This document shows, piece after piece, positions 127 through 23,365 of a DNA stretch of 32,951 bases. The notes below the pieces were generated by a model that had not been told where the DNA came from, made no database searches, and saw only the letters and a program-made list of their open reading frames with translations. Made by a program: the position numbers and the translations under genes. The stretch's first letter is position 1, and every line of letters starts with the position of its first letter. The stretch is from Saprospiraceae bacterium (GTDB lineage: Bacteria; Bacteroidota; Bacteroidia; Chitinophagales; Saprospiraceae): contig JAIBCI010000050.1 of NCBI GenBank assembly GCA_019694255.1, positions 1 to 32,951 on the forward strand, given 5' to 3'.

Positions 127-927
127 GTTTTCCTCGTATATCAATGTACCCAAATTTTCCATTCACTTGCACTTTTAAAAGTAAAGGATGCTTTGATAGG
201 GAAAATCCATTATAAGAATACGCAATAAAAATAAAAGGCAAAATGAATTTAATCATATCTTAATAACGAATGGTAAAAATTACATAAATGATTTCGATCT
301 TGTCCTATATTATTAATGAACGGTGAGTTTTATCCCTTATAATAGGTTGAACAAAAAACATAATAACGCATTACAAATGTATATATATTTTCACGTATCT
401 AGCGTCAGTTACTTAAAATTTATTTTACAACCATTTAATAAATACGATTCGTTTTCCTTTTACAGATTTAAGATTTCAATTTTTTATAGCCGTTATGCCC
501 TCTATTTTTGAGATAAATGAAATAAGTGAATCAGATTATCAAATTCTAATCGGAATGGACGCTCTGTCATCAATTGATCTCCTTTTATTTTTGCCTAATC
601 ACAGGGACGATTTTGTTTAATAATTTTTTCGAAGTATAATTTTTCTAAAGAAAAACTGTCAAACAAATGTGAAAAACTTCGCGCTTCATTCCTGAATATT
701 AACTCCATGTGATTAATATTTTTCATTTAGGATAGTTTAAAAGCATATTGATTACAAAGAATAATTCGAATTTCATATTGGTTATAAATAAATTTAACAT
801 ACATTGGATGGCATTTAATTAGAGCCAGTAACCTTGCTAATAAAAAATCGAATCATCATTCATTTTCATTTGAATAAAATTGAACAAATGAAGTAAATTC
901 TCTATTTTTATCCAAAACTTACGACAG
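127..927. other. AT-rich intergenic region, no gene seen
   Basis: About 800 bp between the IS66 end and acs. It is very AT-rich with stops in all frames. A GTG-started 62-codon frame at 323-511 is low-complexity (rich in Phe, Tyr, Ser and Ile) and does not look coding. I see no RNA gene or strong hairpin. The only candidate signal is the weak promoter-like pair just upstream of acs. Confidence 0.6.
880..910 (+). promoter_or_regulatory. Weak Bacteroidota-type promoter candidate for acs
   Basis: TTG at 880-882, a 20-bp spacer and TATTTTTA at 903-910 resemble the Bacteroidota TTG-N(17-23)-TAnnTTTG promoter, except that the final G is A. It lies 17 bp upstream of the acs ATG, implying a short leader. 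Such matches are frequent in AT-rich DNA. Confidence 0.25.
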
Positions 928-2859: not shown

Positions 2860-2981
2860 TAAGGTCCTTAATAAGTTTACTGTTTTTCCTTTTTTGAAGG
2901 AATATTCCACGGCTATAAATAAGTCCATACACCAGTGAGTACATCTTGGATATTGTCTACTTTTAGGCTAAATTAGATCCA

Positions 2982-5267
2982 ATGAGTAGATTTTATTCGA
3001 CCAGGTATTACTTGAGTTTGATACCTATTTTATTATTGAGCGCAGTCAGCGCACAGGATTATTACCGTCAGGATAGTATTCAGGAAGTAAAAATATATTT
3101 CGGCTACACAAACTGGGATTACCGGCTGGACACCGCCAAGGCAGGAAATGAAGACTACATTCTTGCGTCATACTGTCTGATCAACGGCGTGCGCTTTGAC
3201 AGTGTAGGCGTCAAGTATAAGGGTAACAGCAGTTATCGCGCCGCACAGGTCAAAAATCCGCTGCATATTAAGCTCGACTGGGTCAGGGAATCCCAAAACT
3301 ATAATAAGATCACGAGCATGAAATTCGGTAACAATTTCGCTGATCCTTCAGCGGTTCGTGAAGTACTGTGCTATGAGATTCTCGGACATTATATGGACTG
3401 TTCTGTCGCAAATTTTGCCAAAGTCTATGTCAATGACCAGTACCTTGGACTGTATTCCAATGTTGAAGCGGTCAACAAAAAATTCTGCAGTGATCACTTT
3501 GGTTCTTCTGAACACGTATTTGTGAAAGGCAATCCGGACAGACCGAGTCAGAATTCGACCAGCAATTTGGTATACATCAATAATGATAGTAGCAAGTTTT
3601 ACGCACTCTATGGAATGGAAAACGGAATTGGGTGGTACAAACTCATCGCATTGATGGACTCATTGAAAAACAATATCAACGGGATTCCCGCTATTGTAGA
3701 TATCGACCGATCCATTTGGATGCACGCATTCAACAGTGTGTTTTCCAATTATGACAGTTACACAGGATCTTTTTCTCAGAATTATTATCTGTATGAGGAT
3801 GATTTTGGCCGCTTTCTGCCAGTGATCTGGGATCTCAATATGGCCATTGGTGGTTTTCCGGGAGGAACAGGTGGTGCGGCAACAACAATTGACAAGGTTG
3901 CTTTTTTTAATGGAGAGACCAACGCTGCCAGACCATTGATTCAGAAAATTCTGCAGAATGCGCGTTACAAAAAAATGTTTACAGCACATGTCAGAACGTT
4001 TTGCAATGAATTTATTGCCAATCAGGAATATCAGAAAATTGCGCTTCGACTCCAAAAAATGGTGGATTCACTGGTTCGTACGGATCCCAACAGCCTGACG
4101 ACCTATGCGGCATTTCAGACATCTATGACCGCTCCGATATCCTCTGGCGGAGGCCCCGGCCAGTCTGCTCCTGGGATAACAACGCTGATGGAAGCTAGGC
4201 TCAATTATTTTAAGACAATTGCAGAGTATAACGCAGTACCGCCGGTGATAGGTGCTCCGCAATGGTCGTCTGCAAGTCCGCACATTGGGGATAGTATTTG
4301 GTTGAATGTCAGAATCACCAATGGGACCGATGGATTTCTGGCCTATCGCAAAAACCGTTATGACCTTTTTACCAAACATCAGTTATTGGATGATGGACTG
4401 CATCATGACGGTAAAGCGGGGGATGGAATTTACGGTGCGTGGATGATTCCGGGTGGAAGAAAGACCCAATACTATATTTATGCAGAAAATAATGCAGCGG
4501 GTATTTTTTCACCAGAACGCGCTGAATTCGAATATCATGTATTAAATGCAACAAATACTTTTCCGACTTTGCAAAAAGGCGATCTCGTCATCAACGAATT
4601 GATGTCAGTCAATCAGAAGACGGTCATTGATTCTACCGACCTTAAATACGAAGACTGGACAGAACTTTACAATAATAGTGCACAGGATATTTCACTGGAA
4701 GGTTATTATTTGTCCGACGATTCAGCCAACCCTCTGAAATGGGAATTTCCAACAGGCACTTCGATCCATTCAAAAGGATTGCTCGCGGTCTGGCTCGATG
4801 AAGATGGTAACGCACCGGGGCTTCACGCTAACTTTAAGTTGTCATCTTCTGGCGAAATGCTCCTTTTGTCCCGTGAAGACGGTTTGGTGCTGGACAGCAT
4901 CACGTTCGGATCCTTGTCTGCCGATCATTCTTTGGAGCGATGCCCCAACGGAACAGGATCTTTTGCGCTGACGTCAAAACCCAGTTTTTTAAAGATTAAT
5001 TGTTCGCTTACTTCGGTAGACGAACAGGAGATATCGTGCAGGTTATATCCAAATCCAGCCAGCAACGATGTGATAATTGATTTTGAAAAAGGTCAACCCG
5101 TTCTAGCCGAATTCATTGATATACAAGGCAAAATGGTCAAACGAGAAGTCATTGCGCATTCAGGTCAAATGATCGAATTATCAGGCATGGCCCAAGGTTA
5201 TTATCATGTTCGGCTGATCGATACCAATGGTCTGAGTTTGGGTGTTTTAAAGCTGATCATTCACTAG
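2982..5267 (+). CDS. Secreted CotH-kinase-like protein with lamin-tail and T9SS sorting domains
   Basis: 761 aa. A Sec signal peptide covers residues 1-24 (hydrophobic LSLIPILLLSAVSA, then Q25). A CotH kinase-like domain follows (about 35-400), with KGNSSYR near residue 80 in place of the usual RGNSS, the KFGNNFADPSAVRE segment, LGLYSNVEAVNK, and WDLNMA at 283-288, probably metal- or ATP-binding. A beta domain carries DDGLHHDGKAGDGIYGAW, a pattern common in exported members of this family. A lamin-tail domain spans roughly 534-670 (INELM ... YEDWTELYN ... LAVWLD). The C-terminus (about 685-761, LYPNPASNDVIIDF onward) is a T9SS type A sorting domain, so the protein is probably released or anchored at the surface. 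CotH proteins phosphorylate protein substrates in Bacillus spores and in related effectors; the substrate here is unknown. Confidence 0.85.
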   Translation: MSRFYSTRYYLSLIPILLLSAVSAQDYYRQDSIQEVKIYFGYTNWDYRLDTAKAGNEDYILASYCLINGVRFDSVGVKYKGNSSYRAAQVKNPLHIKLDWVRESQNYNKITSMKFGNNFADPSAVREVLCYEILGHYMDCSVANFAKVYVNDQYLGLYSNVEAVNKKFCSDHFGSSEHVFVKGNPDRPSQNSTSNLVYINNDSSKFYALYGMENGIGWYKLIALMDSLKNNINGIPAIVDIDRSIWMHAFNSVFSNYDSYTGSFSQNYYLYEDDFGRFLPVIWDLNMAIGGFPGGTGGAATTIDKVAFFNGETNAARPLIQKILQNARYKKMFTAHVRTFCNEFIANQEYQKIALRLQKMVDSLVRTDPNSLTTYAAFQTSMTAPISSGGGPGQSAPGITTLMEARLNYFKTIAEYNAVPPVIGAPQWSSASPHIGDSIWLNVRITNGTDGFLAYRKNRYDLFTKHQLLDDGLHHDGKAGDGIYGAWMIPGGRKTQYYIYAENNAAGIFSPERAEFEYHVLNATNTFPTLQKGDLVINELMSVNQKTVIDSTDLKYEDWTELYNNSAQDISLEGYYLSDDSANPLKWEFPTGTSIHSKGLLAVWLDEDGNAPGLHANFKLSSSGEMLLLSREDGLVLDSITFGSLSADHSLERCPNGTGSFALTSKPSFLKINCSLTSVDEQEISCRLYPNPASNDVIIDFEKGQPVLAEFIDIQGKMVKREVIAHSGQMIELSGMAQGYYHVRLIDTNGLSLGVLKLIIH

Positions 5268-7775: not shown

Positions 7776-8543
7776 GTAGCTTGGTTTCATACGGTTACTT
7801 ATAGTTTTAGAAACCAAAATGTTTGTTTTTATGCCTACGCTACGTCAGGGCGTAACATCATTATTTTTTTGTTAACACAAAGAATTTCTCGTTTGATGCC
7901 GTACGATGCAGATTACCAAAAAACTTTGTATTGCATATATTAATATGGTTGAATAATTATTACTGGAATACGAAGTATCATTTCCGTCTTACTCGTAATG
8001 GAAAGAAATCATAGAATATATTATTCTGGATGATACAATGATAAACACATAGGTGTTCATTAAGTAGGTGTAATCTAATCATGATTTTTGTAAGGCCGCA
8101 AAAATTCTATGTATCAGTATGCATTGATTTTTAATTGCACAATGCCTGTCTAAAGTCCAAATAAGACTTTAATCAAGCGGCATTAACTGAATATGGAATC
8201 TGGCTGAGCAATGATGTCACAAATAACATTAAAACAACGGACTTATCCCTGGTTTTTCTTTATAAAATTCACAAAGTTATGATTGATTCCGAGCCAGCAC
8301 AAGTGTTTGGATAATTGAATAATACTGAAGTGCTGCAATAGCCCAAATGAACTTGATTTATGGTCATTATCCGATAAATTTAAAAATAAATATATATAAA
8401 ATGATAATCATCAAATCGATATAAATTTAATAATTAAAATTTTTAGTTGCATGTTTAAAAGTGTACATATTATCATGGCCTTGACTATATATTTGTGAGG
8501 ATTTTTCTTTAGCAAAGGTCTTAATTTATGGAAACTACAACAG

Positions 8544-8559
8544 GCGACAGATTTGTCGC
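8544..8559. repeat. Short perfect inverted repeat upstream of the giant gene
   Basis: GCGACA (8544-8549), loop GATT, TGTCGC (8554-8559). It is GC-rich against an AT-rich background and has no T-tract, so it is not a terminator. It could be a leader hairpin or operator; function unknown. Confidence 0.35.
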
Positions 8560-8851
8560 AACCGTCATTTTTAAAAGTGCGAACAACCTTATTCAATTCT
8601 GTTTATCGTCTATTGCCCTAATCAGGTTTTCATATTTATTCTTTCTTGAATTTGTTGGTGCTGGTAACTTGCATAAGCAATACCTTCAGAGATCCGCCAC
8701 ATCGTTTAATTTATTTCATTGTTCACCATTAGAAAGGACAATGACTAGTGCAGTTATTCATTATAACAAATCGCACGAAATAGAACGAACAAACCTATTC
8801 ACACGACAACTTTAATTTGCTTCTCAAAATAGTTCATAAAAACTACATAGA

Positions 8852-11800
8852 ATGAAAACATTTTTCCATCAGATTGCGAGAAACTTCAAAATGCGATTCA
8901 CACTTACAGCATTCGCGAGTGTGATGATGCTATTAATGGCCGCCTTTGCGCCTATGAAGGGTTGGAGCCAGACTGTCAAAACAGAAAAGGCTATTGCCTC
9001 TGGTTGTTATTACTACGGAGGTGCCAGTAAGACAACAATTAGTGTACAGGTTGGCTGGACAGGTGCCGTCAATGGTGACATCATCAAAGTGGTGCTCGAC
9101 GGTTCTACAACCAGGAATATCAAACCGGAGTCATTCTATGATCCGGGCACAGGTTCCGCAATTGCCGGACCAATGGTAACGCCACAGGTTGTCGCATTTG
9201 AAATTAATGCAGATGGAATTTCACATAAAATAGAAGTAGATTTATTTTCCTCTACCAATGTGCTAAAAGCATCCGGTGCGGACTATTATGTCACTGCGCC
9301 AACACCATGTGCGCCAATTGCATGTAGCGGTACTGCATTAGGAGGTATGGTCTATTTTGATAACAATGCAGACGGAATACATGATGCAGGAGAAACGCAG
9401 GGAATAGAAAATGTGACCGTTACGGCATTTGACAAAAATGGAAATGTGTACAATGCAACATCGGATGGGTACGGAAAATATGCATTCAGTGCAGCCTTGG
9501 GCAATAATATTCCAACAGCCAATTTTCCTGTGCGACTGGAATTTACCAATTGGCCAACGAATGTAATGGGTAATTCCGGACCCTCCATTACTGGTAACAA
9601 ATCAAGTGTAAGATTCGTAGCAGCTGCTGCGTGTAATGTAGATTGTGGTGGGGTATACCCTTTGAACTATTCACAGTCCAATCCTACCATTTTCAATAAC
9701 ATCTATACCAACGGTGACCCGCTGGCAGGAGGTACTGCAGGAAATGAACCTGGATTGATTTCTCACGCATACACTAACAATACAGATTATAATATCACAA
9801 CGATTGTCAAACAAAATTTAATTGGTAGTGCCTGGGCAAAGGCCTGGAATAAATTTGAAAAGAAGTTAATAGTGGCTTCGTTTCTGAAGCGTCACAGCGG
9901 ATACGGACCACTGGGACCAGGTGGATTATATATCCTCAATTATACCAATCCAGGTTCACCTGTTTTTAGTCAGTTGATCGATATAACAACGATTGGAATT
10001 AACGTTGGTCAGGCCTTGATACCGTCAAATGCGGCAAGGGGGCTCTTAGCCAATAAAGATACCCCGAATAAAGATGCAGCCGTTTTTGGACTGGTGGCGA
10101 AAGCAGGTATTGGAGGTATTGATTTATCAGAGGATGGCAATATGCTTTATCTCATGAATCTATACGATCGGAAAATATACTCTATCAATTTTACCAACTA
10201 CTGGAATACCGGAACACTCCCAACCGCATCCGATGTGACTTCTTACGCTGTACCAGATCCTGGCTGCACAGGAGGTGACTACAGACCATTTGCATTAAAG
10301 GTATACAATGGTGTTTTATATACGGGTATGGTTTGTGACGGTTCAACCGGAACCAAATCCAATATGGTGGCCTATGTCAAAGGAATGGATCTGACGACCA
10401 ATACATGGTTCGATGTATTCGATTTCCCGCTAACCTATCCTAAGGGTTATCCCGATCAGCAGGATGGATCAAAAGTGGGATGGTATAAATGGAGTGACGT
10501 CATGTCTGATGTTTGGAACGGTACAGGATCTATTCTTCATCCAGTACCTATTTTTTCAGATATTGAATTTGACTTGGATGGTACGATGGTTTTGGCCTTG
10601 ATGGACCGTACCCCACAACAAATGGGGCATGAAAACTATGATAACCCTGCCCTGAATGGAGGTGCATTTATTGCAGCGGGAGGTGATTATCTGAGGGCAT
10701 TCTATTCCAATGGCGCATATGTATTAGAGAATGCTGCCAAAGCAGGACCCAATGTAGGTTTTTATCCAACCAACAACCAGGGACCTGGATTTGGAGAATT
10801 CTATAATGATAATATCGATGGTGGTGTCAAATACCACACGGAGATGGGTACCGGTGGACTGGTGCTCGTTCCGGGATCAGGAGAAGTCCTGGCTGGCATG
10901 GTTGACCCAAATTTTTACGCGGGTGGACCACTTTACGCCAATGGTGTTCGCAGGATGAGTAATACGACCGGAAATCATACCGGAGGATTTTCTTACATCG
11001 CAGGAAATTCGATTGACAATTTTGCCAAAGGTATCGGCATAGGAGATATGGAAGCCGCTACCAACAACCTTACCTACATCGAATTGGGTAACTATGTGTG
11101 GCGGGACAGCGATGCAGATGGTATACAGGATCCTGCCGAAACAGGTGTAAGTGGAATTATTCTTAAATTATATAAATCATCAGATGGTTCATTAATTGGT
11201 ACTGCAACCACTGATGCCAATGGTAACTATTATTTTTCGACGTTGAGTGGACTCAGCATTCTTCCGAATACAGATTATTGTATTCTGGCGGGTGTTGGAC
11301 AGTATGTTACAGGTCCGGGAACCATAACGCTCGGAGGAATTACTTACTCTCTAACAGCATTTAATACTGGGCAGGGAGCGGATCCGGACCTGAATGATAA
11401 TGATTTTACAAATGGCAATTTGTCGACTGCGTTAGGAGCAAGACCGGCAGGTTATCCGCAATTCTGCGTTAAAACCGGAGAATACGGGTATATCAACCAT
11501 ACCATCGATATGGGTCTCATTCCTTGTAGTATCACCGGCACCGCGACACCGACAGCTTGTAAGGATAACGGTACGCCTTATAATACTGCGGATGATTACT
11601 TCCAGGTAGTCGTCAACGCTACCAACGGAGCAGCAGGGCCAGCCAATATGTACGAAGTCGTATACAATAACGTGGTTATTGGAACAGGTACGTACGGTAC
11701 AAGCATAACGGTAGGCAATGCGACTACGCCACCTTTTAAACCAGATGGTACAACAACTTATGATTTATATATTAGAGACAAAGACCATCCGGATTGTATT

Positions 11801-14800
11801 ACGGGTGTAATTAAAGTTGGGCCTGTCACGCCTTGCCCGAAATATTACGACTGGGGTGACCTGCCGGATACCAACTCTGGCCTGCCAAATAGTTATGCAA
11901 CAAATAATACCAATGGTGGAGAGGGTCTAGGTCCTAATCACTTAATCATTGATGGATTGAAGATTGGAAATACCATCGATTCAGAAAACGATGGGCAGCC
12001 CAATACAGGGGCAACTGGAGATGGCAATGATGAAGATGGTGTGACCTTGCCTATGTTTATCGCAGGGCAAACGGCTACCGTTCCTGTGACGGTCATGAAT
12101 ATGACCGGAGGCGATGCCAAATTGACAATGTTCATTGATTTTAATAAGAATGGCAATTTGAATGAAGCCTCTGAAATGGCATCAGCCACTGTCCCAACCG
12201 GAACAAATGGTATTATTAACTTAAGCATTCTGGTACCAACCAATGCTATTGCCAATCAAAATATCGGTGTTCGATTCAGATTGTCTACAGATGCAGCTTC
12301 AAGTATGATTCCAACGGGTGCAGCTCCGGATGGTGAAGTTGAAGACTATATCACACAAATTATGGCTTATGATTATGGTGACCTGCCGGATACTGATAAT
12401 GGTAGCGGTTCTTACCCGACCAATACTAATAATGGTGGTGAAGGCATAGGTGCTAGTCATAAAATAATAACTGGTCTTAAAATGGGTGCTTCTGTAGATG
12501 CAGAAGCAGATGGACAACCCAACACACTAGCAACTGGAGATGGTAGTGATGAAGATGGCGTGACCCTGCCAATGCTGATTGCAGGAACTACGGTCACGGT
12601 GCCGGTAACTGTAATGAACACAACCGGCGCTACTGCAAAGCTTACGATGTTTGTAGATTTCAATTTGGATCATGATTTTAATGATGCAGGTGAAATGGTT
12701 AGCGCCAACGTAAGTACAGGCACCAATGGTGTAGTTAACCTTACCTTGCCAGTTCCTGCAGATGCAGTACTCAATAAGAGCTTGGGAGTAAGGTTTAGAT
12801 TATCAACAGATGCGACAAAGAGTATGTCTCCAACCGGATCAGCGCCGGATGGAGAAGTTGAAGACTATCTTACGACTGTGATGGGATATGATTATGGTGA
12901 CCTTCAGGACACCAATAACGGTGCCGGATCTTATCCGACTAATCTTACCAACGGTGGCGAAGGTGTTGGCCCAAGTCACAAAATTGTTGATGGATTGAAG
13001 ATTGGTACTGTCATTGACGCAGAAGGCAATGGGCAACCCTCTACTTTGGCAGATGGAGATGACAATAATGGATCTACGGCAGATGATGAAGAGGGTGTAA
13101 CCTTACCGGCTTTCAATACCGGTAATACGGCAATAATACCTGTCAGGGTAATGAATATGACCGGAACAGATGCCAAATTGACAATGTTTATTGATTTCAA
13201 TAATAACAAGAACCTGGCAGATCCGGGAGAGATGACTTCAATAACTGTTCCAGCGGGTACTAATTCGACACTTAACATGAGTATCCTGGTCCCGGTTACT
13301 GCTGCGACCAATACGAATTTGGGTGTTAGATTCAGGTTAAGTACAGATGCTGCGGCCAGTATGATTCCAACCGGTGCCGCTCCAGATGGTGAGGTTGAGG
13401 ACTATGTAACAAGTATTACAGGTTCTGTAATTACACATAACAAATCCATTAAAAAAGTCACTTCAACAGGTCTCAACCAATATCTCGTTGAATATACCAT
13501 TAATGTCATAAACAGTGGCAGTGGATCAGGTACATACAAACTGGAAGACAGAACTGCATTTGACAACGATATCAATATACTCAGTGCAAGTTATACTTCA
13601 AATGCACCTGGAAACTTAGGTCCGGTTAATCTAATAGGCAGCGGAATATGGACTCTTGCTTCGAATCAGACTATCAATGCGAATACAACCCATACTTATA
13701 CGGTTGGCGTAAATGTTTCGATAGACCTGTTAGATGGAGTGACCGGAGATGACAAATACACAAATTGTGGCAAGGCCATCACCAATTACCCTAGTTCAGG
13801 AGAAGGACTTTTCAATGAATCAATTCTTGATATCTATGCGGATGGTTCAGTTGATCAAAAAGACACTGCATGCACAGATCTTCCTTTTATCATTCATGAT
13901 AAGACACTCGGAACAGTTACACAGGTTGGGGTCAACACCTACGATGTAGTGTATGGAATTCTTGTAAAAAATATTGGAGGAGCAACCGGTCAGTATGATC
14001 TGCAGGATGAGCCAATGTTTGACGATGATATTACCCAGGTTTCTGCCAAAGTCTTAAGCAGCATCACCGGTGTAACAACAACATTGGGCGTGCCCGGACC
14101 ATGGTTATTGGCCAATAATCAGAGTATTGCAGCCGGTGCCTCACAGAATTATACGTTGACCGTAAGAGTTAAGTTGGATCTTGAAGATGGTGTGGTCGGA
14201 GATGATCAATATACTTCATGTGGAACATTGAATCCCGGAATTCCAAATGAGAATGAAGGATTATTCAACAGGAGTTTGCTGGATGTAAATGATGATGGCA
14301 AATTTGATTACCGCGACAGTGTCTGTACAGATATTCCATATATCGTGCATGAAAAACTGATCGATAATGTGGTTACAACTGGAATCAATAAATACAAAAT
14401 CACCTACAAAATCATCGTTAAGAACATTGGTGGAGCCTCTGGTTCTTATAACCTGAGCGATGCGCCAGGATTTGATGATGACATTACCATTACGGCTTCT
14501 CAGTATTCTACCAATGCCGCGGGTAATCCTGGAAATCCAGGACCTGTAGCGTTGGCAGGAAGTGGCCCATGGACATTGGCTACCAATCAGAATATCAGTG
14601 CGGGTGCCACACAGACATTTACCATACCGGTGGATGTTACTGTAAGTCTCGAAGCAGGAAGTGGTGGTGACAATATTCTGAAAGCTTGTGGTCAGGCGGT
14701 ACCTGGAGTTCCACGGGTCGGAGAAGGATTGTTCAACAGGAGCTTGCTGGATTTGGATAAAAATGGTACACCGGATCGCCAGGATTCAGTATGTTATGAC

Positions 14801-17800
14801 ATTCCATACATCATACACGACAAGGAAATTGTAAGCGTTGTACCGAACGGTGCCAATGCGTATATTGTAAACTATAAGATCAACGTCAAAAACGTTGGAA
14901 CAGTTAGTGGTAATTACGGTTTGGCTGACGCTCCAAACTTTGATAATGATATAAATATTCAGAGTGCAAGTTATACCAGCAATGCGCCAGGCTTCCTTGG
15001 ACCTAATAATCTGGCGGGTAATGGACCATGGACTTTGTCTACCAATGTAAGCCTTGGAGCGGGAGCAACGCATACTTACAATCTGGCAGTAAAAGTTAAT
15101 ATTGACCTGCTGGATGGTGTGTCTGGTGACGATAGTTACTATGCATGTAACAGAAGCAGCTCAACGCATTATACAGCTGGGGAAGGATTATTTAATGAAT
15201 CCAGACTTGATTTGAACAATGACGGTCTGGCAGATATGAAGGATACGGTTTGTGCTGATCTTCCATTTATCATCCATGATAAGACACTTGGATCTGTTAC
15301 TCCGGTTGGAGTCAATACTTATGATGTGGTGTATGGTATCCTTGTAAAAAATATTGGTGGTGCAGTTGGTCAGTATGATCTTCAGGATGAACCAATGTTT
15401 GACGATGATATTACCCAGGTTTCAGCCAAAGTGTTAAGTAGTGTTACCGGTGTAACAACATCACTGGGCGTGCCCGGACCATGGTTATTGGTAAATAATC
15501 AGAGTATTGCAGCCGGTGCCTCTCATAATTATACATTGACCGTAAGAGTTAAGTTGGATCTTGAAGACGGCGTATCTGGGGATGACAAGTATACTTCTTG
15601 TGGAACATTTAATCCGGGTGTCCCTAAAGAGAATGAAGGATTATTCAACAGGAGTTTGCTGGATGTAAATGATGACGGCAAATTTGATTACCGTGACAGT
15701 GTCTGTACAGATATTCCATATATCGTGCATGAAAAACTGGTCGATAATGTAACCCAGACTGGGATTAACAAGTATAAGGTAACTTATAAAATCATTGTTA
15801 AGAATATTGGTGGAGCCTCTGGTTCTTATAACCTGAGCGATGCACCTGGATTTGATGATGACATTACCATTACGGCTTCTCAGTATTCTACCAATGCCGC
15901 GGGTAATCCTGGAAATCCGGGACCTGTAGCGCTGGCTGGAAGTGGCCCATGGACATTGGCTACCAATCAGAATATCAGTGCGGGTGCCACACAGACATTT
16001 ACCATACCGGTGGATGTTACAGTAAGTCTCGAAGCAGGAAGTGGTGGTGACAATATTCTGAAAGCTTGTGGTCAGACAGTACCTGGAGTTCCACGGGTCG
16101 GAGAAGGATTGTTCAACAGGAGCTTGCTGGATTTGGATAAAAATGGCACACCGGATCGCCAGGATTCAGTATGTTATGACATTCCGTACATCATACACGA
16201 CAAGGAAATTGTAAGCGTTGTACCGAACGGTGCCAATGCGTATATTGTAAACTATAAGATCAACGTCAAAAACGTTGGAACAGTTAGTGGCAATTACGGT
16301 TTGGCTGACGCTCCAAACTTTGATAATGATATAAATATACAGAGTGCAAGTTATACGAGCAATGCGCCGGGCTTCCTTGGACCTAATAATCTGGCGGGTA
16401 ATGGACCATGGACTTTGTCTACCAATGTAAGCCTTGGAGCGGGAGCTACGCATACTTACAATCTGGCAGTGAAAGTTAATATTGACCTGCTGGATGGTGT
16501 GTCTGGTGACGATAGTTACTATGCATGTAACAGAAGCAGCTCAACGCATTATACAGCTGGGGAAGGATTATTTAATGAATCCAGACTTGATTTGAATAAT
16601 GACGGTCTGGCAGATATGAAGGATACGGTTTGTGCTGATCTTCCTTTTATTATTCATGACAAGACGATTAGTAGTGTTACGCCGGTAGCAATTAATACAT
16701 ACGATGTCGTATACAATATTGATGTCAAAAATATTGGAGGAGCAACGGGCACGTACGATCTTGATGACGAACCTGAATTTGAAGATGATATTACTCAAAT
16801 TTCAGCCAAATTCTTAAGTAGCGCAACAGGCATTACAACTTCTTTGGTAATCCCTGGTCCTTGGAAATTGGCCAATAATCAAACAATTTCTGCCGGATCA
16901 ACCCAAAAATACACCATCACAGTAAGAGTGAAAATTGATCTCGAAGATGGTGTTTCAGGAGATGATCATTACGATGCTTGTGGATCATCCGCGCCAGGAA
17001 CTCCGAAAGATTTTCAAGGTCTGTTTAACAGGAGTTTACTGGATATTAATGATGATGGAAAGCCTGATTACAGAGATAGTGTATGCGCAGATTTGCCTTA
17101 CGTCGTTCATGAAAAACTGATTGACAATGTAACTCAGACTGGTATTAATAAGTACAAAGTAACTTATAAGATCATTGTTAAGAATATTGGTGGCGCTACA
17201 GGTTCATACAATCTGAGCGATGCGCCTGGATTTGATGATGACATTACCATTACGGCTTCTCAATATTCTACCAATGCGTCAGGTAATCCTGGAAATCCGG
17301 GACCTGTAGCTTTGGCTGGTACTGGACCATGGACATTAGCAACAAATCAAAGTATTAATGCCGGGGCTGTTCAGGTATTTACAATTCCGGTAGATGTAAG
17401 TGTAAGCTTAGCTGCAGGATCAGGCGGTGACAATGTGCTTAAGGCATGCGGCCAGACAGTACCTGGAATTCCAAGAGTGGGTGAAGGTCTGTTTAACAGG
17501 AGCTTGCTGGATTTGGATAAAAATGGCACGCCGGATCGTCAGGATTCGGTATGTTATGACTTGCCGTATATTATTCATGACAAGGAAATAGTAAGTGTGG
17601 TGCAAACCGGTGCTACAAATTATACTGTAAACTACAAAATCACAGTTAAGAATATTGGTACCATAACAGGTACTTATGGATTGGCGGATGCACCAGCATT
17701 TGATAATGACATAGCCATTCTAGCAGCACGTTATACCAGCGATGCACCATCATACTTCGGTCCTATTGCCCTTGCAGGGATTGGTCCTTGGACATTGTCC

Positions 17801-20800
17801 TCCGGAGTCAATCTGGCTGCGGGTGGTACACATACTTACAACCTAGCCGTGGACGTCAAGATTGATTTAATTGACGGAACGTCAGGTGATGATGTCTATT
17901 TTGCTTGTGGAAGAAGTAGTTCTACGCATTATACAGCTGGAGAAGGTCTATTTAATGAATCCAGATTGGATTTAAACAATGATGGACTTGCAGACATGCG
18001 GGATACCGTTTGTGCAGATCTTCCATTTGTGATTCATGACAAAACCATTATCAGCGTAACCCCTACCGGAGTCAATACTTACGATGTGGTGTATGGAATT
18101 GATGTTCGGAATATTGGTGGTGCAACAGGTAAATATGACTTGAGAGATGAACCAAAATTTGATAACGATATTGCAATGCTGAATGCAAAATATCTAAGTT
18201 CTGTAACAGGCACAACGACGAGTTTGGCTGTACCTGGCCCATGGATTCTTGCAAGCAATCAAAGTATCAATGCAGGAGCACTCCAAAAGTATACGATTAC
18301 TGTAGGTGTTGCCATTGACCTTGAAGACGGTTTGACAGGCGATGATCGTTATTCATCATGCGGTACACAAACTCCGGGAATGCCTGGAGAAAATGAAGGT
18401 CTTTTCAACAGAAGTTTGTTAGATGTAAATCATGACGGCGCTTATGATTACCGCGATAGTGTATGTGCAGATATTCCTTACATTGTACATGAAAAAATTA
18501 TTGATAATGTAGTCTCTACAGGAATCAATAAATATAAGATTACGTATAAAATCAATGTGAAAAACATTGGCGGTGCTGCCGGATTGTATAATCTGAGCGA
18601 TGCGCCTGGTTTCGATGATGATATTACGATAACGGCGGCAAGGTATTCCTCAAATGCTGCGGGTAATGCTGGCAATCCTGGCCCGGTTATTTTGGCAGGA
18701 ACAGGGCCATGGACACTGGCCGTGAATCAGAATATTAACCCGGGTACAACCCAGACATTCACTATTCCGGTAGATGTAAGTATTAGCCTTGCAGCAGGTT
18801 CTGGTGGCGATAATATCTTGCGTTCGTGTGGACAGACCGTACCGGGTGTTCCGCGTGTAGGAGAAGGCTTATTCAATCGTAGTTTGTTGGATATTGACAG
18901 AAATGGTACCCCTGACAGACAGGATTCTGTTTGCTATGATTTGCCATATATTGTTCACGAAAAACAGTTTGTTGGTACCACCCAAACAGGTGCCAGGACT
19001 TTTAAAGTTGATTACAAGATTATCGTTCGCAACATAGGTACAGCCGCCGGCACTTACGGATTAGCGGATGCCCCGGCATTTGACAATGACATAGATATTA
19101 CCAGTGCGAGCTTTACAAGCAATGCGCCAGGTTATTCAGGACCGTTGAACTTAGCAGGTTCAGGACCTTGGAACCTGTCCAATAATGTCAATATTGGTGC
19201 AAATGGCGTGCATACTTATAATATTGCTGTAAATGTCAGATTTGACCTGAGTACAAGTACCGGTGATAAGGTTTACAATCAATGCGGTAAGGCAAATCCT
19301 AATTTACTTACTGCTGGAGAAGGCTTGTTCAATGAATCGAGACTTGATCTTGATAATGATGGACTTGCAGACATGCGGGATACGGTTTGCGCAGACCTTC
19401 CTTATGTGGAACATCAGAAGTACTTTACGAGCGTTGTAAAGACAGGTCTGGGAATGTACACTGTAAAGTACAAAGTGGAGGTTAAGAACAGGGGAGGTGC
19501 AGTTGGAACTTATGATCTGATTGATAATCCTGGTCTGGATGATGACTTTGAGATTGTTAGTGCAAAACTGAGTTCTGACGCTTCGGGTAATCCTGCAACA
19601 CCGGGTCCAGTGAGCATTGCCAATAATGGTCCTTGGGTTTTTGCCAATGATCAGAATATCAATCCAGGTGGTATTCAGACTTATAACCTGTCACTTGATG
19701 TGAAAATTGACCTTCAGACGGTATCAAGTGCCGGAGATGAAGTATACAATTATTGTGGAACGCATTTTCCTGGCATTCCAAGCAAGGGCGAAGGTTTATT
19801 TAATGAATCTACACTGGATGTAAATAATGATGGATTGCCGGATCAACGCGATTCAGTCTGTCAGGACGTGGAAATTGTTGATCTCGCATTGAGAAAGCAG
19901 GTTGTTACTGCCGGACCTTATGCGTATGGACAGGATATCACATTCTCAATACAGGTTGTTAACCAGGGTAACGTGACAATGAATCAAGTCGAAGTGACAG
20001 ATCACATTCCGATTGGGTATAGCCTGGCACCAGGTAATGTTGGATGGACGGGAGTATATCCGAATATCAAAAAGGTTATTCCTGGACCATTAGCACCAGG
20101 AAGTTCCCTGACGACCAATTTAGTCCTGAGATTAAAACAAACGCAGGGTGGTCGTATGGATTGGGTCAACTACGCAGAAGTATCCAAGACTATTAATTCT
20201 CGTGGAGAAGATGTTTCTTTGGATGACGAGGATAGCAGACCTGCGAGTGATGGACCGGCTGAACGTGCAGTCAAGCCAGGTGACGTAAAAGATGATGATA
20301 TTTTCAGCAGAGACAAGGGTGGTGAAGAAGATGATCACGATCCTGCCGGAATTGAAGTCTATGACCTTGCATTAAGAAAAATTTACAAAGGAGCTTATCC
20401 GATTCATTATAATGATGTAGTTCCATTTGAAATTACGATATTTAATCAGGGTAATATTTCCAGTAAGGAAATCAGTATTGTGGATTACATACCGCAGGGA
20501 TATGAATGGGATGTTGCACTCAATGGTGGCTGGAGTTATAATAGTTTAACTAGAATGGCCACTACGACTTATCCTGGAACAATCGTGCCAGGAGATAGTG
20601 CTAAAGTAACTGTATATGTTAAAGTACTGGTCAATTATTCAGGTATTAAAGCCTGGGATAATTATAGCGAAATCAAGAGTACGAAGGATACTACCGGAGT
20701 GGTCCGCACAAAGGATATTGACTCTAATTTTGACATGATACCAGACAATGATATGGGAGGAGTTCCGGATACCAAATCAGATAATTTTATTGATGATGAT

Positions 20801-23365
20801 GGTAATGATGGAGACGGTGATGGTATCAAGGATGAAGATGATCATGACCCTGCCAGACCTCAGATCGTAGACCTTGCGTTGAGAAAGTGGGTACTGAACA
20901 AAAAGCCATATTACATTCCAGGTGAGATTGTTCCATATACTTTGACAGTTTTCAATCAGGGTAATGTAATAATGAATAGCGTAACAGTCAATGATTACCT
21001 GTTCGCTGGATATTCCTTCGATCCTGCAATCAATCCGGGTTGGACACTGGTTGGTTCTACATTGAGTAAAACTCAGGTAGGCACGCTAAATCCGAACGAT
21101 AGCATGCAATTCCAGTTAAAACTTAAGGTGCAGGTACCTGTTGGCGCTAGCGTAGAATCATGGTGGAATTATGGTGAAGTCAAAGGAATGATTGATACCA
21201 ACGGAAAAGTCAGAGATAATGATGATGCAGATAGCAAATCTAATTCGGATTCTCCGTATGAGCGTAATGTCAAACCTGGCGATCCATGGGATAATGTTAT
21301 TGACGGACAGGGTCAACCTGAAAATGAGGATGAAGACGACCATGATCCGGAAAAAGTAATCGTTACAGCATACCTTGGTGATTACGTCTGGAAAGATGAT
21401 AATGGTAACGGTGTTCAGGATATAACTGAACACGGAATTAAAGGCGTTGAAGTTCAACTTTATGATTGTAAGACGAATACGCTCGTCAGAAAGGATACAA
21501 CGGATGTGAATGGAGAGTATGGTTTCGAATTCTTATTAAGTGGAACTTACTATGTTAAATTCATTAATCCTGATCCGGAGAAATGTGGATTTACATTTAA
21601 AGATAAGGGAGGAAATGATAAGAAGGACAACGACGCCAATGATGCTGGAATAACAGACTGTATCTTCCTGGATTGGGGTCAGAGGGATAGTACTGCAGAT
21701 GCTGGTCTGGTTCTTTGGGCAAGTTATGGTGATTACACCTGGCATGATAGAAATGCAAACGGAATGCAGGAAGCCGGTGAAGAACCAATTGCGGGCGTTA
21801 AAGTGACTCTTTACAATGGCGATACCAAATTATCTGTTCGAACCACCATTACAGATGGCAATGGTCTTTACAGATTCACTAAATTGTTGCCAGGTAATTA
21901 CTATGCTAAGTTTGATGCGGATCCAATGTGGGTTGAGACCGATGCAAATACGAGCAATGATGTTAAAGACAGCGATGTCGATGGAAGTAATGGAGTACAT
22001 ACTACGGCTACAACCTTCCTCAGCCCTGGCGAAGATGATCTGACATGGGATGCAGGTTATTGGAAGTGTAGCATGATCGGTGGAAGGGTATTCCTGGATG
22101 CTGATATGGACGGCGTATTCGATTTCAATGAGAATGGTATTAACGGACTGAAAGTATATCTTGTCAATGCAATGACAGGTGTATCAGTAGCTCAATTGCT
22201 CACGGCAGTGAATCCGGCAACTCCTTCTGATGATGGTTATTACAAGTTTCCTTGTGTAAAACCAGGAATGTATTATATCAGATTCGAAAGACCGGGTCAT
22301 CTGGCAGCCAGTGAGCCATTCAAAGGTGGTAATCCTGACAAAGACAGTGATATTAGTCACGAGAATGGCGTCAACACCACACGTAAGTTTACTATAACCA
22401 GTGATAATATGCTGATTAATATTGGTGCTGGATTCCAGACCAAGGCTATGGTCGGTGATTTTGTATGGTTAGACACCAATTTTAACGGTCTTCAGGATGC
22501 AGGCGAACAGCCGGTGGAAGGTGTTAAAGTCATGGCAGTAAAACTGAATGGTACAATCGTCTCCGAATCAACTACAGAAGCTGATGGTCACTACACACTG
22601 GACGGTATAGCCCAAGGTGATTACTTTGTTAAATTTGATCCACCAGCAAATCTAAGCTTCACGGTAGCACATGCCGGAAGTGATGAGGTCGACAATGACG
22701 CAGATGGTACGAATGGTTATGGTACAACAAGGACTTATCGCGTCAACCCAGGTGATGTTAGACCATCTGTAGATGCTGGTCTTGTGTTCCAGGTTCTGCC
22801 TTTGGAATGGCTAAGTTTTGATGGCAGATTCAATGGAAGTTTCACTGAGTTGGATTGGAAGACAGGGGTTGAACTCAACAATGATCATTTTGAAGTTGAA
22901 AGACGACATGAAAGTGAAACAGCATTCACTAAAATTGCCCAGGTTGAAGCAAGCACGGCACCAGCAAATAAGATTCATGTATATGACCATGATGATTATG
23001 ATATGGTAAGACCAGGGGTGTACTACTATCGTATTCGTCAGGTTGACCGTAATGGACAATTTACCTACAGCCGCACAATCAGTGTTCGCGTGGAAGGTAG
23101 CCGCGAATTAAATGTTAGCATCTATCCAAATCCGACGGATGAAAAACTAATAATAGACCTCGGATTAGGTGAAGATACTGATCTTGAAGTGCGGGTATTT
23201 GATGAAGCCGGTAAGAATGTGCTTACCAATCCATTTAGTGGATTCAGAAAAGCTGGATTTTACAGAGAAACTTTAAATACTTCTGTACTGATACCAGGTC
23301 ATTACAACATGCAGATTAAGACTACGCAGGGACTGATTAATAAGAAGTTTACGGTAGCGAGATAA
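8852..23365 (+). CDS. Giant multi-repeat T9SS surface protein (4837 aa)
   Basis: Predicted mass is roughly 0.5 MDa. A Sec signal peptide covers residues 1-39 (TAFASVMMLLMAAFAP ... GWS-Q); Met14 is an alternative start. Then, in order: an N-terminal beta region; SdrD_B-like domain (about 161-255); a propeller-like region (about 270-740); a second SdrD_B domain (from 745, LGNYVWRDSDADGIQDPAE); a linker beta domain; three GEVEDY modules (about 999-1525); fourteen ~153-aa modules (1529-3672); three DUF11-type modules (3677-4170, each opening DLALRK); four SdrD_B modules (4174-4645); a short Fn3-like region (PLEWLSFDGRF onward); and a T9SS type A sorting domain (about 4754-4837, SIYPNPTDEKL). It is probably an exported, calcium-stabilised surface stalk or adhesin. 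The frame is open throughout and ends at a strong terminator. Ligand and role are unknown. Confidence 0.9.
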   Translation: MKTFFHQIARNFKMRFTLTAFASVMMLLMAAFAPMKGWSQTVKTEKAIASGCYYYGGASKTTISVQVGWTGAVNGDIIKVVLDGSTTRNIKPESFYDPGTGSAIAGPMVTPQVVAFEINADGISHKIEVDLFSSTNVLKASGADYYVTAPTPCAPIACSGTALGGMVYFDNNADGIHDAGETQGIENVTVTAFDKNGNVYNATSDGYGKYAFSAALGNNIPTANFPVRLEFTNWPTNVMGNSGPSITGNKSSVRFVAAAACNVDCGGVYPLNYSQSNPTIFNNIYTNGDPLAGGTAGNEPGLISHAYTNNTDYNITTIVKQNLIGSAWAKAWNKFEKKLIVASFLKRHSGYGPLGPGGLYILNYTNPGSPVFSQLIDITTIGINVGQALIPSNAARGLLANKDTPNKDAAVFGLVAKAGIGGIDLSEDGNMLYLMNLYDRKIYSINFTNYWNTGTLPTASDVTSYAVPDPGCTGGDYRPFALKVYNGVLYTGMVCDGSTGTKSNMVAYVKGMDLTTNTWFDVFDFPLTYPKGYPDQQDGSKVGWYKWSDVMSDVWNGTGSILHPVPIFSDIEFDLDGTMVLALMDRTPQQMGHENYDNPALNGGAFIAAGGDYLRAFYSNGAYVLENAAKAGPNVGFYPTNNQGPGFGEFYNDNIDGGVKYHTEMGTGGLVLVPGSGEVLAGMVDPNFYAGGPLYANGVRRMSNTTGNHTGGFSYIAGNSIDNFAKGIGIGDMEAATNNLTYIELGNYVWRDSDADGIQDPAETGVSGIILKLYKSSDGSLIGTATTDANGNYYFSTLSGLSILPNTDYCILAGVGQYVTGPGTITLGGITYSLTAFNTGQGADPDLNDNDFTNGNLSTALGARPAGYPQFCVKTGEYGYINHTIDMGLIPCSITGTATPTACKDNGTPYNTADDYFQVVVNATNGAAGPANMYEVVYNNVVIGTGTYGTSITVGNATTPPFKPDGTTTYDLYIRDKDHPDCITGVIKVGPVTPCPKYYDWGDLPDTNSGLPNSYATNNTNGGEGLGPNHLIIDGLKIGNTIDSENDGQPNTGATGDGNDEDGVTLPMFIAGQTATVPVTVMNMTGGDAKLTMFIDFNKNGNLNEASEMASATVPTGTNGIINLSILVPTNAIANQNIGVRFRLSTDAASSMIPTGAAPDGEVEDYITQIMAYDYGDLPDTDNGSGSYPTNTNNGGEGIGASHKIITGLKMGASVDAEADGQPNTLATGDGSDEDGVTLPMLIAGTTVTVPVTVMNTTGATAKLTMFVDFNLDHDFNDAGEMVSANVSTGTNGVVNLTLPVPADAVLNKSLGVRFRLSTDATKSMSPTGSAPDGEVEDYLTTVMGYDYGDLQDTNNGAGSYPTNLTNGGEGVGPSHKIVDGLKIGTVIDAEGNGQPSTLADGDDNNGSTADDEEGVTLPAFNTGNTAIIPVRVMNMTGTDAKLTMFIDFNNNKNLADPGEMTSITVPAGTNSTLNMSILVPVTAATNTNLGVRFRLSTDAAASMIPTGAAPDGEVEDYVTSITGSVITHNKSIKKVTSTGLNQYLVEYTINVINSGSGSGTYKLEDRTAFDNDINILSASYTSNAPGNLGPVNLIGSGIWTLASNQTINANTTHTYTVGVNVSIDLLDGVTGDDKYTNCGKAITNYPSSGEGLFNESILDIYADGSVDQKDTACTDLPFIIHDKTLGTVTQVGVNTYDVVYGILVKNIGGATGQYDLQDEPMFDDDITQVSAKVLSSITGVTTTLGVPGPWLLANNQSIAAGASQNYTLTVRVKLDLEDGVVGDDQYTSCGTLNPGIPNENEGLFNRSLLDVNDDGKFDYRDSVCTDIPYIVHEKLIDNVVTTGINKYKITYKIIVKNIGGASGSYNLSDAPGFDDDITITASQYSTNAAGNPGNPGPVALAGSGPWTLATNQNISAGATQTFTIPVDVTVSLEAGSGGDNILKACGQAVPGVPRVGEGLFNRSLLDLDKNGTPDRQDSVCYDIPYIIHDKEIVSVVPNGANAYIVNYKINVKNVGTVSGNYGLADAPNFDNDINIQSASYTSNAPGFLGPNNLAGNGPWTLSTNVSLGAGATHTYNLAVKVNIDLLDGVSGDDSYYACNRSSSTHYTAGEGLFNESRLDLNNDGLADMKDTVCADLPFIIHDKTLGSVTPVGVNTYDVVYGILVKNIGGAVGQYDLQDEPMFDDDITQVSAKVLSSVTGVTTSLGVPGPWLLVNNQSIAAGASHNYTLTVRVKLDLEDGVSGDDKYTSCGTFNPGVPKENEGLFNRSLLDVNDDGKFDYRDSVCTDIPYIVHEKLVDNVTQTGINKYKVTYKIIVKNIGGASGSYNLSDAPGFDDDITITASQYSTNAAGNPGNPGPVALAGSGPWTLATNQNISAGATQTFTIPVDVTVSLEAGSGGDNILKACGQTVPGVPRVGEGLFNRSLLDLDKNGTPDRQDSVCYDIPYIIHDKEIVSVVPNGANAYIVNYKINVKNVGTVSGNYGLADAPNFDNDINIQSASYTSNAPGFLGPNNLAGNGPWTLSTNVSLGAGATHTYNLAVKVNIDLLDGVSGDDSYYACNRSSSTHYTAGEGLFNESRLDLNNDGLADMKDTVCADLPFIIHDKTISSVTPVAINTYDVVYNIDVKNIGGATGTYDLDDEPEFEDDITQISAKFLSSATGITTSLVIPGPWKLANNQTISAGSTQKYTITVRVKIDLEDGVSGDDHYDACGSSAPGTPKDFQGLFNRSLLDINDDGKPDYRDSVCADLPYVVHEKLIDNVTQTGINKYKVTYKIIVKNIGGATGSYNLSDAPGFDDDITITASQYSTNASGNPGNPGPVALAGTGPWTLATNQSINAGAVQVFTIPVDVSVSLAAGSGGDNVLKACGQTVPGIPRVGEGLFNRSLLDLDKNGTPDRQDSVCYDLPYIIHDKEIVSVVQTGATNYTVNYKITVKNIGTITGTYGLADAPAFDNDIAILAARYTSDAPSYFGPIALAGIGPWTLSSGVNLAAGGTHTYNLAVDVKIDLIDGTSGDDVYFACGRSSSTHYTAGEGLFNESRLDLNNDGLADMRDTVCADLPFVIHDKTIISVTPTGVNTYDVVYGIDVRNIGGATGKYDLRDEPKFDNDIAMLNAKYLSSVTGTTTSLAVPGPWILASNQSINAGALQKYTITVGVAIDLEDGLTGDDRYSSCGTQTPGMPGENEGLFNRSLLDVNHDGAYDYRDSVCADIPYIVHEKIIDNVVSTGINKYKITYKINVKNIGGAAGLYNLSDAPGFDDDITITAARYSSNAAGNAGNPGPVILAGTGPWTLAVNQNINPGTTQTFTIPVDVSISLAAGSGGDNILRSCGQTVPGVPRVGEGLFNRSLLDIDRNGTPDRQDSVCYDLPYIVHEKQFVGTTQTGARTFKVDYKIIVRNIGTAAGTYGLADAPAFDNDIDITSASFTSNAPGYSGPLNLAGSGPWNLSNNVNIGANGVHTYNIAVNVRFDLSTSTGDKVYNQCGKANPNLLTAGEGLFNESRLDLDNDGLADMRDTVCADLPYVEHQKYFTSVVKTGLGMYTVKYKVEVKNRGGAVGTYDLIDNPGLDDDFEIVSAKLSSDASGNPATPGPVSIANNGPWVFANDQNINPGGIQTYNLSLDVKIDLQTVSSAGDEVYNYCGTHFPGIPSKGEGLFNESTLDVNNDGLPDQRDSVCQDVEIVDLALRKQVVTAGPYAYGQDITFSIQVVNQGNVTMNQVEVTDHIPIGYSLAPGNVGWTGVYPNIKKVIPGPLAPGSSLTTNLVLRLKQTQGGRMDWVNYAEVSKTINSRGEDVSLDDEDSRPASDGPAERAVKPGDVKDDDIFSRDKGGEEDDHDPAGIEVYDLALRKIYKGAYPIHYNDVVPFEITIFNQGNISSKEISIVDYIPQGYEWDVALNGGWSYNSLTRMATTTYPGTIVPGDSAKVTVYVKVLVNYSGIKAWDNYSEIKSTKDTTGVVRTKDIDSNFDMIPDNDMGGVPDTKSDNFIDDDGNDGDGDGIKDEDDHDPARPQIVDLALRKWVLNKKPYYIPGEIVPYTLTVFNQGNVIMNSVTVNDYLFAGYSFDPAINPGWTLVGSTLSKTQVGTLNPNDSMQFQLKLKVQVPVGASVESWWNYGEVKGMIDTNGKVRDNDDADSKSNSDSPYERNVKPGDPWDNVIDGQGQPENEDEDDHDPEKVIVTAYLGDYVWKDDNGNGVQDITEHGIKGVEVQLYDCKTNTLVRKDTTDVNGEYGFEFLLSGTYYVKFINPDPEKCGFTFKDKGGNDKKDNDANDAGITDCIFLDWGQRDSTADAGLVLWASYGDYTWHDRNANGMQEAGEEPIAGVKVTLYNGDTKLSVRTTITDGNGLYRFTKLLPGNYYAKFDADPMWVETDANTSNDVKDSDVDGSNGVHTTATTFLSPGEDDLTWDAGYWKCSMIGGRVFLDADMDGVFDFNENGINGLKVYLVNAMTGVSVAQLLTAVNPATPSDDGYYKFPCVKPGMYYIRFERPGHLAASEPFKGGNPDKDSDISHENGVNTTRKFTITSDNMLINIGAGFQTKAMVGDFVWLDTNFNGLQDAGEQPVEGVKVMAVKLNGTIVSESTTEADGHYTLDGIAQGDYFVKFDPPANLSFTVAHAGSDEVDNDADGTNGYGTTRTYRVNPGDVRPSVDAGLVFQVLPLEWLSFDGRFNGSFTELDWKTGVELNNDHFEVERRHESETAFTKIAQVEASTAPANKIHVYDHDDYDMVRPGVYYYRIRQVDRNGQFTYSRTISVRVEGSRELNVSIYPNPTDEKLIIDLGLGEDTDLEVRVFDEAGKNVLTNPFSGFRKAGFYRETLNTSVLIPGHYNMQIKTTQGLINKKFTVAR
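11846..13432 (+). repeat. Three tandem GEVEDY modules inside the giant gene
   Basis: Units start at 11846, 12368 and 12887 (522 and 519 bp spacing). Each opens YD[WY]GDL, continues through an NGGEG...H segment, a DEDGVTLP-type acidic loop (DEEGVTLP in unit 3), a TMF[IV]DFN strand and a GVRFRLSTDA strand, and closes with APDGEVEDY. The GEVEDY motif is a named repeat domain of bacterial surface proteins. The DxDxN and DEDG clusters suggest metal binding. Confidence 0.85.
14431..15264 (+). repeat. Near-identical DNA block, copy 1 (B1-C1)
   Basis: Aligned with 15811-16644 at an offset of 1380 bp, I count about 17 differences in 834 bp, so about 98% identity. Several 60-bp stretches are identical. 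Similarity drops on both sides of the block. Confidence 0.85.
15811..16644 (+). repeat. Near-identical DNA block, copy 2 (B2-C2)
   Basis: Partner of 14431-15264. Many of the differences are synonymous third-position changes. This is what a recent tandem duplication or gene-conversion tract under protein-level constraint would look like. Confidence 0.85.
19880..21370 (+). repeat. Three DUF11-type modules inside the giant gene
   Basis: Each opens with DLALRK (19880, 20363, 20880) and continues with a VFNQGN-type strand (VVNQGNV, IFNQGNI, VFNQGNV), an [DN]Y[IL]P.GY-like segment and a closing acidic stretch with DxDDHDP. This layout is typical of DUF11 repeats in surface proteins. The Asp-rich linkers probably bind calcium. 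Confidence 0.8.
21371..22790 (+). repeat. Four SdrD_B modules inside the giant gene
   Basis: Units start near 21371, 21725, 22066 and 22448. Each has a GDYVWKDDNGNGVQD-type calcium loop, then GVxVxLY, a DGxYxF turn and a YYVKF-type strand, the SdrD B-domain pattern. The third is the most divergent (GGRVFLDADMDGVFD). Confidence 0.85.

Follow-up and report, generated by a model that had tools for sequence, protein, structure and literature searches.

The stretch analysed here (hereafter the window) is a 32,951-nucleotide piece of DNA from a Saprospiraceae bacterium, and represents one whole contig (JAIBCI010000050.1) of a 125-contig, 3.56-Mb draft genome (G000). It carries on the forward strand an open frame of 4837 amino acids (aa) for a giant, putative surface protein (8852-23365). 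Fourteen tandem modules of about 152 aa are found at positions 13430-19876, all in this one open reading frame (ORF), in the order C0-(A-B-C)x4-D. The modules were delimited by the anchor [VIE][VITE]H[NDEQ]K, and their lengths are, in order, 153, three times (151, 156, 153), 151, 156, 152 and 157 aa. On the forward strand, the N-terminal edge module C0 (13430-13888) is followed by A1 (13889-14341), B1 (14342-14809), C1 (14810-15268), A2 (15269-15721), B2 (15722-16189), C2 (16190-16648), the protein of which is identical to that of C1, A3 (16649-17101), B3 (17102-17569), C3 (17570-18028), A4 (18029-18481), B4 (18482-18949), C4 (18950-19405), which is one residue shorter, and the C-terminal edge module D (19406-19876).

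The A modules start at 13889, 15269, 16649 and 18029, which gives spacings of 1380, 1380 and 1380 nucleotides (nt). The A-to-A spacing of 1380 bp in a 14-module A-B-C array, claimed in an earlier reading of this DNA (hereafter the original prediction), was thus exact at all three steps. The exact length claimed for the triplet as a whole stands for the A spacings and fails once, from C3 to C4, where the spacing is 1377 nt since C4 is short by one residue. Exact repeat length alone is weak evidence, because the modules seldom take indels. In a self-comparison, the identity of the array peaked at lags of 1380, 2760 and 4140 nt (70%, 62% and 55%, the top three among lags 100-4499), and the maximum in a codon-shuffle control (50 shuffles; lags from 300, in steps of 3) was 32%; the predicted periodicity was therefore present. 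The mean aa identities at module lags 1-9 were 49, 49, 77, 49, 48, 70, 48, 47 and 64%, with a permutation p of 0.0005 for period 3, the floor of 2000 permutations. Among the 12 A, B and C modules, members of the same class share 62-100% of their amino acids and members of different classes 45-52%. Each class formed a single starred clade in the module trees, in agreement with the predicted clustering by position. Twenty alignment columns, 5 of which are indel columns, are constant within each class and different between classes. At the nt level, identity is 98% for C1/C2, 94% for B1/B2, 88% for A1/A2 and 62-83% for the remaining same-class pairs. Tandem Repeats Finder did not report the array, because its longest period is 500 and adjacent modules are only about half alike.

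The ends of the array were compared with those of the genus-mate G001, the flanks of which are 80% (N-flank) and 67% (C-flank) identical to those of the window, and the array of which is interrupted by contig ends. The first module of G001 matches C0 at 84% aa identity, the next-to-last matches C4 at 76% (versus 63-66% for C1-C3), and the last matches D at 73%. These one-to-one counterparts bear out the proposal that C0 and D are the older edges of the array. C4, which the original prediction counted as an ordinary C, is thus an edge module as well. A B fragment in G001 is equally close to B1-B3 (88%), and a 36-aa A fragment matches A1-A3 (81%). The three classes must therefore have existed before the lineages of the window and G001 separated. 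The last modules of four of the six genus-mates in the tree (G001, G002, G004 and G006) fall together with D, and those of G003 and G008 do not.

The divergence of the triplet copies was analysed at fourfold sites. Copies 1 and 2 differ at 21/63 sites in A, 10/76 in B and 6/69 in C (p = 4.5e-4 for unevenness), and copies 2 and 3 at 35/46 in A, 29/71 in B and 39/56 in C (p = 1.3e-4). Copies 3 and 4 differ at 30/42 sites in A and 44/58 in B, near the 75% of random sequence, as the considerable divergence described for them in the original prediction would lead one to expect; C was omitted from this comparison owing to the missing residue of C4. Synonymous divergence (dS) by the NG86 method was saturated or >0.8 in all same-class pairs with copy 3 or 4. 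The ratio of nonsynonymous divergence (dN) to dS was 0.06-0.10 in eight of the nine computable same-class pairs and 0 for C1/C2; 9 of the 18 same-class pairs gave no value due to saturation of dS. The dN of the B pairs (0.065-0.131, without B1/B2) is about half that of the A pairs (0.205-0.261, without A1/A2), which suggests that B is the more constrained class. Since the divergence is uneven both between copies 1 and 2 and between copies 2 and 3, one duplication followed by even drift is insufficient. Later, patchy gene conversion or an overlapping duplication would account for the uneven copies. The triplets of the window are old and patchily homogenised, and of the block duplication event itself the window holds only old, patchy traces.

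Block duplication is seen directly in relatives. The genes with an N-flank like that of L058 contain 3 (L080 and L070), 6 (L065 and L069) or 9 (L058 and L062) modules. Their N-flanks are 54-94% identical, some flanks being short because of contig or stretch ends (L069, N-flank of 246 aa; L070 and L062, C-flanks of 156 and 229 aa), and the series appears to represent orthologue-like genes of other genera. Their modules group across genera by position modulo 3: p1, the first p0, the inner p0 and the inner p2 each form one starred clade, and only the group of last-position modules requires two changes. The proteins of modules 2-4 and 5-7 are identical in L058, where the DNA repeats in tandem over 1392 nt, with exactly matching stretches of 47 + 1310 + 50 nt. 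This gene demonstrates a recent, almost exact duplication of a block, in a relative rather than in the window. The expansion by whole triplets put forward in the original prediction is therefore direct in relatives (3/3/6/6/9/9 modules, with the 1392-nt repeat of L058); for the window, the uneven copies 1 and 2 defy a single clean duplication.

A profile built from the 14 modules matched 11 of 60 genomes, the window's own included, and found no modules in the genus-mates G005 and G007. Within the family, a 65-module profile gave matches (E <= 1e-15) in 55 of 398 genomes and in 28 of 112 genera. One of 395 genomes in a class-level sample matched, which was the window's own, and none of 106 candidate stretches from viral contigs did. 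In the family and class-level searches, no more than 9 candidates per genome were scored. Where kinship is known, and with sampling within the class, the module has so far been observed in Saprospiraceae only. Between species, the number of modules varies from 14 in the window to 24 in G003, 11 in G008 and 4 in G002. The 24 modules of G003 form a flat array (about 69% nt identity), and those of G008 show a weak period of three (p 0.49). G006 has at least 19 modules in two pieces cut by contig ends, the longer piece being mostly >90% identical at the nt level. A clear period of three, with classes X, Y and Z, is found in the 27 modules of L048 (genome G060).

The survey comprised 67 arrays or pieces with 340 modules, and the 23 arrays of at least five modules were scanned for a period; some of these are truncated at contig ends, and two (L068 and L074) depart from a clean tandem arrangement. 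In 6 of the 23 arrays p was <= 0.05, with period 3 in the window, L048, L058, L062 and L087 and period 4 in L060. After correction for 23 tests, only the window, L048 and L060 were significant. The same period-3 pattern is present without significance in L065 and L069 (six modules each; p 0.12 and 0.11), and L066, L072 and L088 showed no significant period. The rule that the module number is always a multiple of three was rejected, complete arrays including those of 14, 11, 14, 4, 5, 8 and 8 modules. It was retained for the L058 gene series alone; the 18 modules of the related paralogue L060 are also a multiple of three in number, but their period is four. In the module trees, the L058-group classes are separate from the modules of the window and G060 (99/97). 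When four single modules from other arrays are counted with those of the window and G060, the resulting set is separate from the L087, L060 and L058-group classes (96/84). The higher-order pattern thus had more than one origin, provided that no exchange between classes has erased an older kinship. The pairing of ABC with XYZ was examined by approximately unbiased (AU) tests without G001, in which 7 of 9 pairings were unrejected, and B=X (p 0.039) and B=Z (p 0.024) were marginally rejected. A single ABC clade gave p 0.12 and a single XYZ clade p 0.05. AU tests including G001 were confounded for B and C, the B and C modules of G001 lying outside the forced clade. The class residuals between ABC and XYZ were at most 1.5% identity.

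The array sits between the GEVED and DUF11 stretches of the giant protein, in which Pfam matches to SdrD_B (six stretches), GEVED (three), DUF11 (three) and Por_Secre_tail were found. The three GEVED-type repeats (11893-13427, forward strand; repeat families and PF20009), spaced 519-537 nt apart, lie just 5' of the array. The best of the DUF11 stretches (aa 3677-3780; 19880-20191, forward strand) follows directly after it, and the best SdrD_B match (aa 4174-4286) is at 21371-21709 on the same strand. The N-terminus is hydrophobic and, as judged by eye, signal-peptide-like. A type IX secretion system (T9SS) type A sorting domain (aa 4757-4835; 23120-23356, forward strand) scores above the curated cut-offs of both TIGR04183 (33.7 bits, cut-off 23) and PF18962 (38.3 bits, cut-off 27), which supports the earlier description of the modules as a surface array. 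With this type IX secretion signal at its C-terminus, the protein most likely serves as an extended surface stalk. The gene neighbourhood looks ordinary, with genes for an acetyl-CoA-synthetase-like protein and a CotH/LTD protein upstream and, downstream, a set of cbb3 oxidase genes and a gene for a P-type ATPase. A 95-aa ORF (8528-8815) lies immediately ahead of the giant gene.

The single modules had no convincing Pfam match; the best E was 0.017, and no family was found in more than 2 of the 14 at E <= 1. Over the whole protein, DUF1454 reached a summed 29.3 bits, above its cut-off of 25.6; the highest-scoring stretch lies in a module, and no individual stretch is significant. We take this score as a sum across repeats. 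Among PDB sequences, the best match to the modules had an E of only 0.13. AlphaFold2 predicted all-beta structures both for the triplet A2-B2-C2 (model mf3e691be6f24; predicted local distance difference test (pLDDT) 92.7, predicted template modelling (pTM) score 0.82) and for B2 alone (model m88a3a05109c6; pLDDT 96.0, pTM 0.90). In Foldseek searches, the triplet matched integrin-alpha legs with template modelling (TM) scores of about 0.2 and root-mean-square deviations of 15-21 in most rows. The single module matched cellulose-binding domains, a Thermus protein and pilins at TM scores of about 0.25-0.43, with just two matches at E <= 0.001. The predicted modules would thus have a general Ig-like resemblance and belong to no specific family.

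All 14 modules contain the loop D-x-[DNY]-x-[DN]-G-x2-D-x2-D, and each of the 14 has exactly two cysteines. The acidic loop, which we presume to be of the dockerin or thrombospondin kind, is probably a calcium site. The two cysteines of each module are likely to form a disulfide, and the modules together probably form an extended rod that holds the N-terminal region away from the cell. These assignments follow from the loop, the cysteines and a likeness to MpAFP (PMC4083281). Side observations were made on the loop in other arrays. It is lost in 7 of the 9 copies of class Y of G060 (L048:287-12784), and in L087 a W replaces the loop glycine in all three copies of one class.

Taken together, it seems likely that the array, composed of beta-sandwich modules, is the stalk of a giant T9SS protein, and that its A-B-C higher-order repeat was built by recombination of triplets and patchy conversion between older ends. 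Three adjacent modules would first have diverged to about 49% aa identity. Homology-dependent recombination, by unequal crossing-over or slippage, would then have occurred between same-class modules 1380 nt apart, mostly with the gain or loss of whole triplets and with the phase preserved. Purifying selection would have kept the length and the class-specific residues, and the synonymous sites became saturated. Later patchy conversion would have re-homogenised parts of the array, chiefly the B and C modules in the first two copies. C0, C4 and D, which are older, stayed apart from the exchanging core.

There are several facts that weigh against this interpretation. The unevenness between A and B is absent in copies 3 and 4 (p 0.79), and that between copies 1 and 3 is weak (p 0.09). 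Synonymous saturation leaves neither the age nor the order of the window's original duplications recoverable. No gain or loss of a triplet is seen between the window and its close relative G001, the array of which is broken at contig ends. The paralogue L060, the N-flank of which is 45-50% identical to those of the L058 series, has 18 modules with a period of four, so that three is not a fixed unit. The stalk shape, the calcium binding and the disulfides, as well as the recombination path within the window, are matters that we infer.

It could also be considered that the triplet serves as a unit of structure or of ligand register, in which each third module would face alike or meet the same partner, as has been suggested for the super-repeats of titin, and selection would keep ABC. 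Such a unit would fit with the finding of period three on three sides of the module tree (the window and G060; the L058 group, via G207 and G180; and L087), with the evolution of B at about half the rate of A, and with the 20 class-fixed columns that distinguish A, B and C. It would also fit with the single class that has an extra cysteine pair in the L058 group and the single class that lacks the acidic loop in 7/9 copies in G060. Class differences, however, are also expected from simple descent. The arrays of the genus-mates G003 (24 modules) and G006 are flat, L060 has a period of four, L066, L072 and L088 have no significant period, and the complete arrays of the window (14), G008 (11) and L066 (14) are not multiples of three. 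We regard this explanation as unlikely. The structural constraint on the triplet, offered as one of two options in the original prediction, is not required, and is weakened by the genus-mates G003, G006 and G008 (24, at least 14 and 11 modules), the arrays of which have no significant period, and by the period-four L060. The triplet is best read as a block duplication, and a strict structural rule for three is unlikely.

Another explanation, to which we assign a rather low probability, is selection against the misfolding of like neighbours: copying by triplets would keep neighbours near or under 50% identity, and the DNA could still recombine at a distance. It has been proposed that avoidance of aggregation may favour multi-domain duplication (PMC1553488), and an adjacent identity below 50% has been discussed (PMC8201768). 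The means of adjacent aa identity are 43-57% in eight higher-order arrays (49% in the window). Low adjacent identity is, however, partly inherent in any array with classes, and high values are tolerated in relatives (93% in L033, 79% in L066, 74% in L039 and 69% in L031). The number and order of the triplets could, in turn, be an error of the draft assembly, considering that the genome is in 125 contigs, that the window is a whole contig and that the G001 array is broken by contig ends. The longest exact repeats, however, are 125 nt at lag 1380 and 35 nt at lag 2760 and should be resolvable by short reads; a single open frame runs through all 14 modules, and copies 3 and 4 each have a sequence of their own. 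An assembly artefact is therefore highly improbable.

MpAFP, which is secreted by the type I route, may be compared with the stalk proposed here. Its region II is likewise a long Ig-like tandem that serves as an extender, rigidified by calcium and with acidic residues at calcium sites; it consists of about 120 identical 104-residue repeats (PMC4083281), whereas the present array has modules of about 152 residues in three classes, a T9SS signal and putative calcium sites. Periscope Proteins (Whelan et al. 2021, PMC8201768) resemble the array in their tandem folded domains, their variable repeat number and their role as a bacterial surface stalk, which is putative for the array. They were found through long, highly identical repeats and number variation in long reads (PMC8201768), whereas identity within the classes of the window is 62-98%, mostly 62-83%, at the nt level, and the variation in number is one seen between species. 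The titin A-band also contains repeats of repeats, in which domains at the same position are most alike, and less so in the super-repeats at the edges (PMC10665226). Its units of 7 and 11 domains mix Ig and FnIII domains, and the longer one corresponds to the filament period (PMC10665226); the array of the window, in contrast, has a single module family, three modules per unit and no known partner period.

Bjorklund et al. 2006 (PMC1553488) described the copying of several domains as the commoner mode of repeat expansion, with prokaryotes included and with blocks of seven domains in nebulin. The array shares with those repeats the similarity peak at a multi-domain lag and, as seen in its relatives, the joint copying of several domains (PMC1553488), and differs from them in its three-module unit, its unnamed bacterial family and its orthologue-like genes with whole-block steps. 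Among the matches listed in searches on Saprospiraceae, bacterial surface higher-order repeats and Bacteroidota pilus strand exchange, there was no paper on this module family. The family has no name of its own; the family and its arrays are new, and the process of block copying is already known. Stalks can lengthen by the copying of three modules at once, as the relatives show. In 2006 it was an open question if repeats expand at random or under control, and by what the size of the block is set (PMC1553488). The lengths in the present module family run naturally from 1 to 27 modules, with repeat orders of none, 3 and 4, and comparison among them makes this question testable. Members of Saprospiraceae have been reported to abound in wastewater plants (PMC9304909). 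Surface stalks may influence the form of the flocs there.

In three genomes of the genus g107 (G116, G205 and G260), one array is spread over consecutive ORFs. The split loci, L097 (G116:C8), L092 (G205:C392) and L103/L053 (G260:C169), contain five junctions. At each junction, the upstream ORF terminates within a module at model position 99-101, and the downstream ORF has a signal-peptide-like start (judged by eye) followed by a match from position 87-104 to the end of the module. Terminator-like hairpins are present in two gaps (L053:11324-11361 and L097:7374-7346), and promoter-like sites in the gaps were not above shuffles. The two cuts lie exactly three modules apart in G260, as in the ABC unit, and four apart in G116. 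All five upstream half-modules have an extra cysteine pair. Its columns (module positions ~17 and ~97) are filled jointly in the same 20 of the 338-339 modules of the first set, at L053, L058, L062, L065, L069, L070, L071, L073, L080, L092, L094 and L097; further such modules are found outside this set in L098, L100 and L101. The pair recurs at each third module in L058, L062, L065 and L069.

A search for homologues of the first split protein was positive in 42 of 398 genomes (E <= 1e-60), mostly for the N-terminal part alone. A longer open frame contains a match to nearly the entire protein in G297, G180, G101 and G193. Of these, G297, G101 and G193 have the matching second module in one piece and with the extra cysteine pair, and G180 has two modules without the pair. 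Because fused and split forms of one gene exist, these facts suggest that the two halves of a split module meet. On this basis, the module might be a two-part joint, made of a sandwich (1-101) and a loop/cysteine cap (102-152), with the blocks as units of both assembly and duplication; the secreted proteins of g107, between which the chain is cut within a single module class, would then re-join by pairing of their halves into a head-to-tail fibre. We consider this extension doubtful.

Further observations were made on other genes that carry the module. L042-L046 (in G000, G006, G004, G001 and G002) represent a second gene, about 2700-2780 aa long; its modules number exactly three, have diverged strongly (mean mutual aa identity 26-36%) and are unexpanded in all five genomes. 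In the 18-module paralogue L060 (G297:C27), the four-module super-repeat forms four blocks plus two edge modules, and each module has four to six cysteines. The open frame of L066 (G396:C67) is 12366 aa long and contains 14 modules at 58-98% identity.

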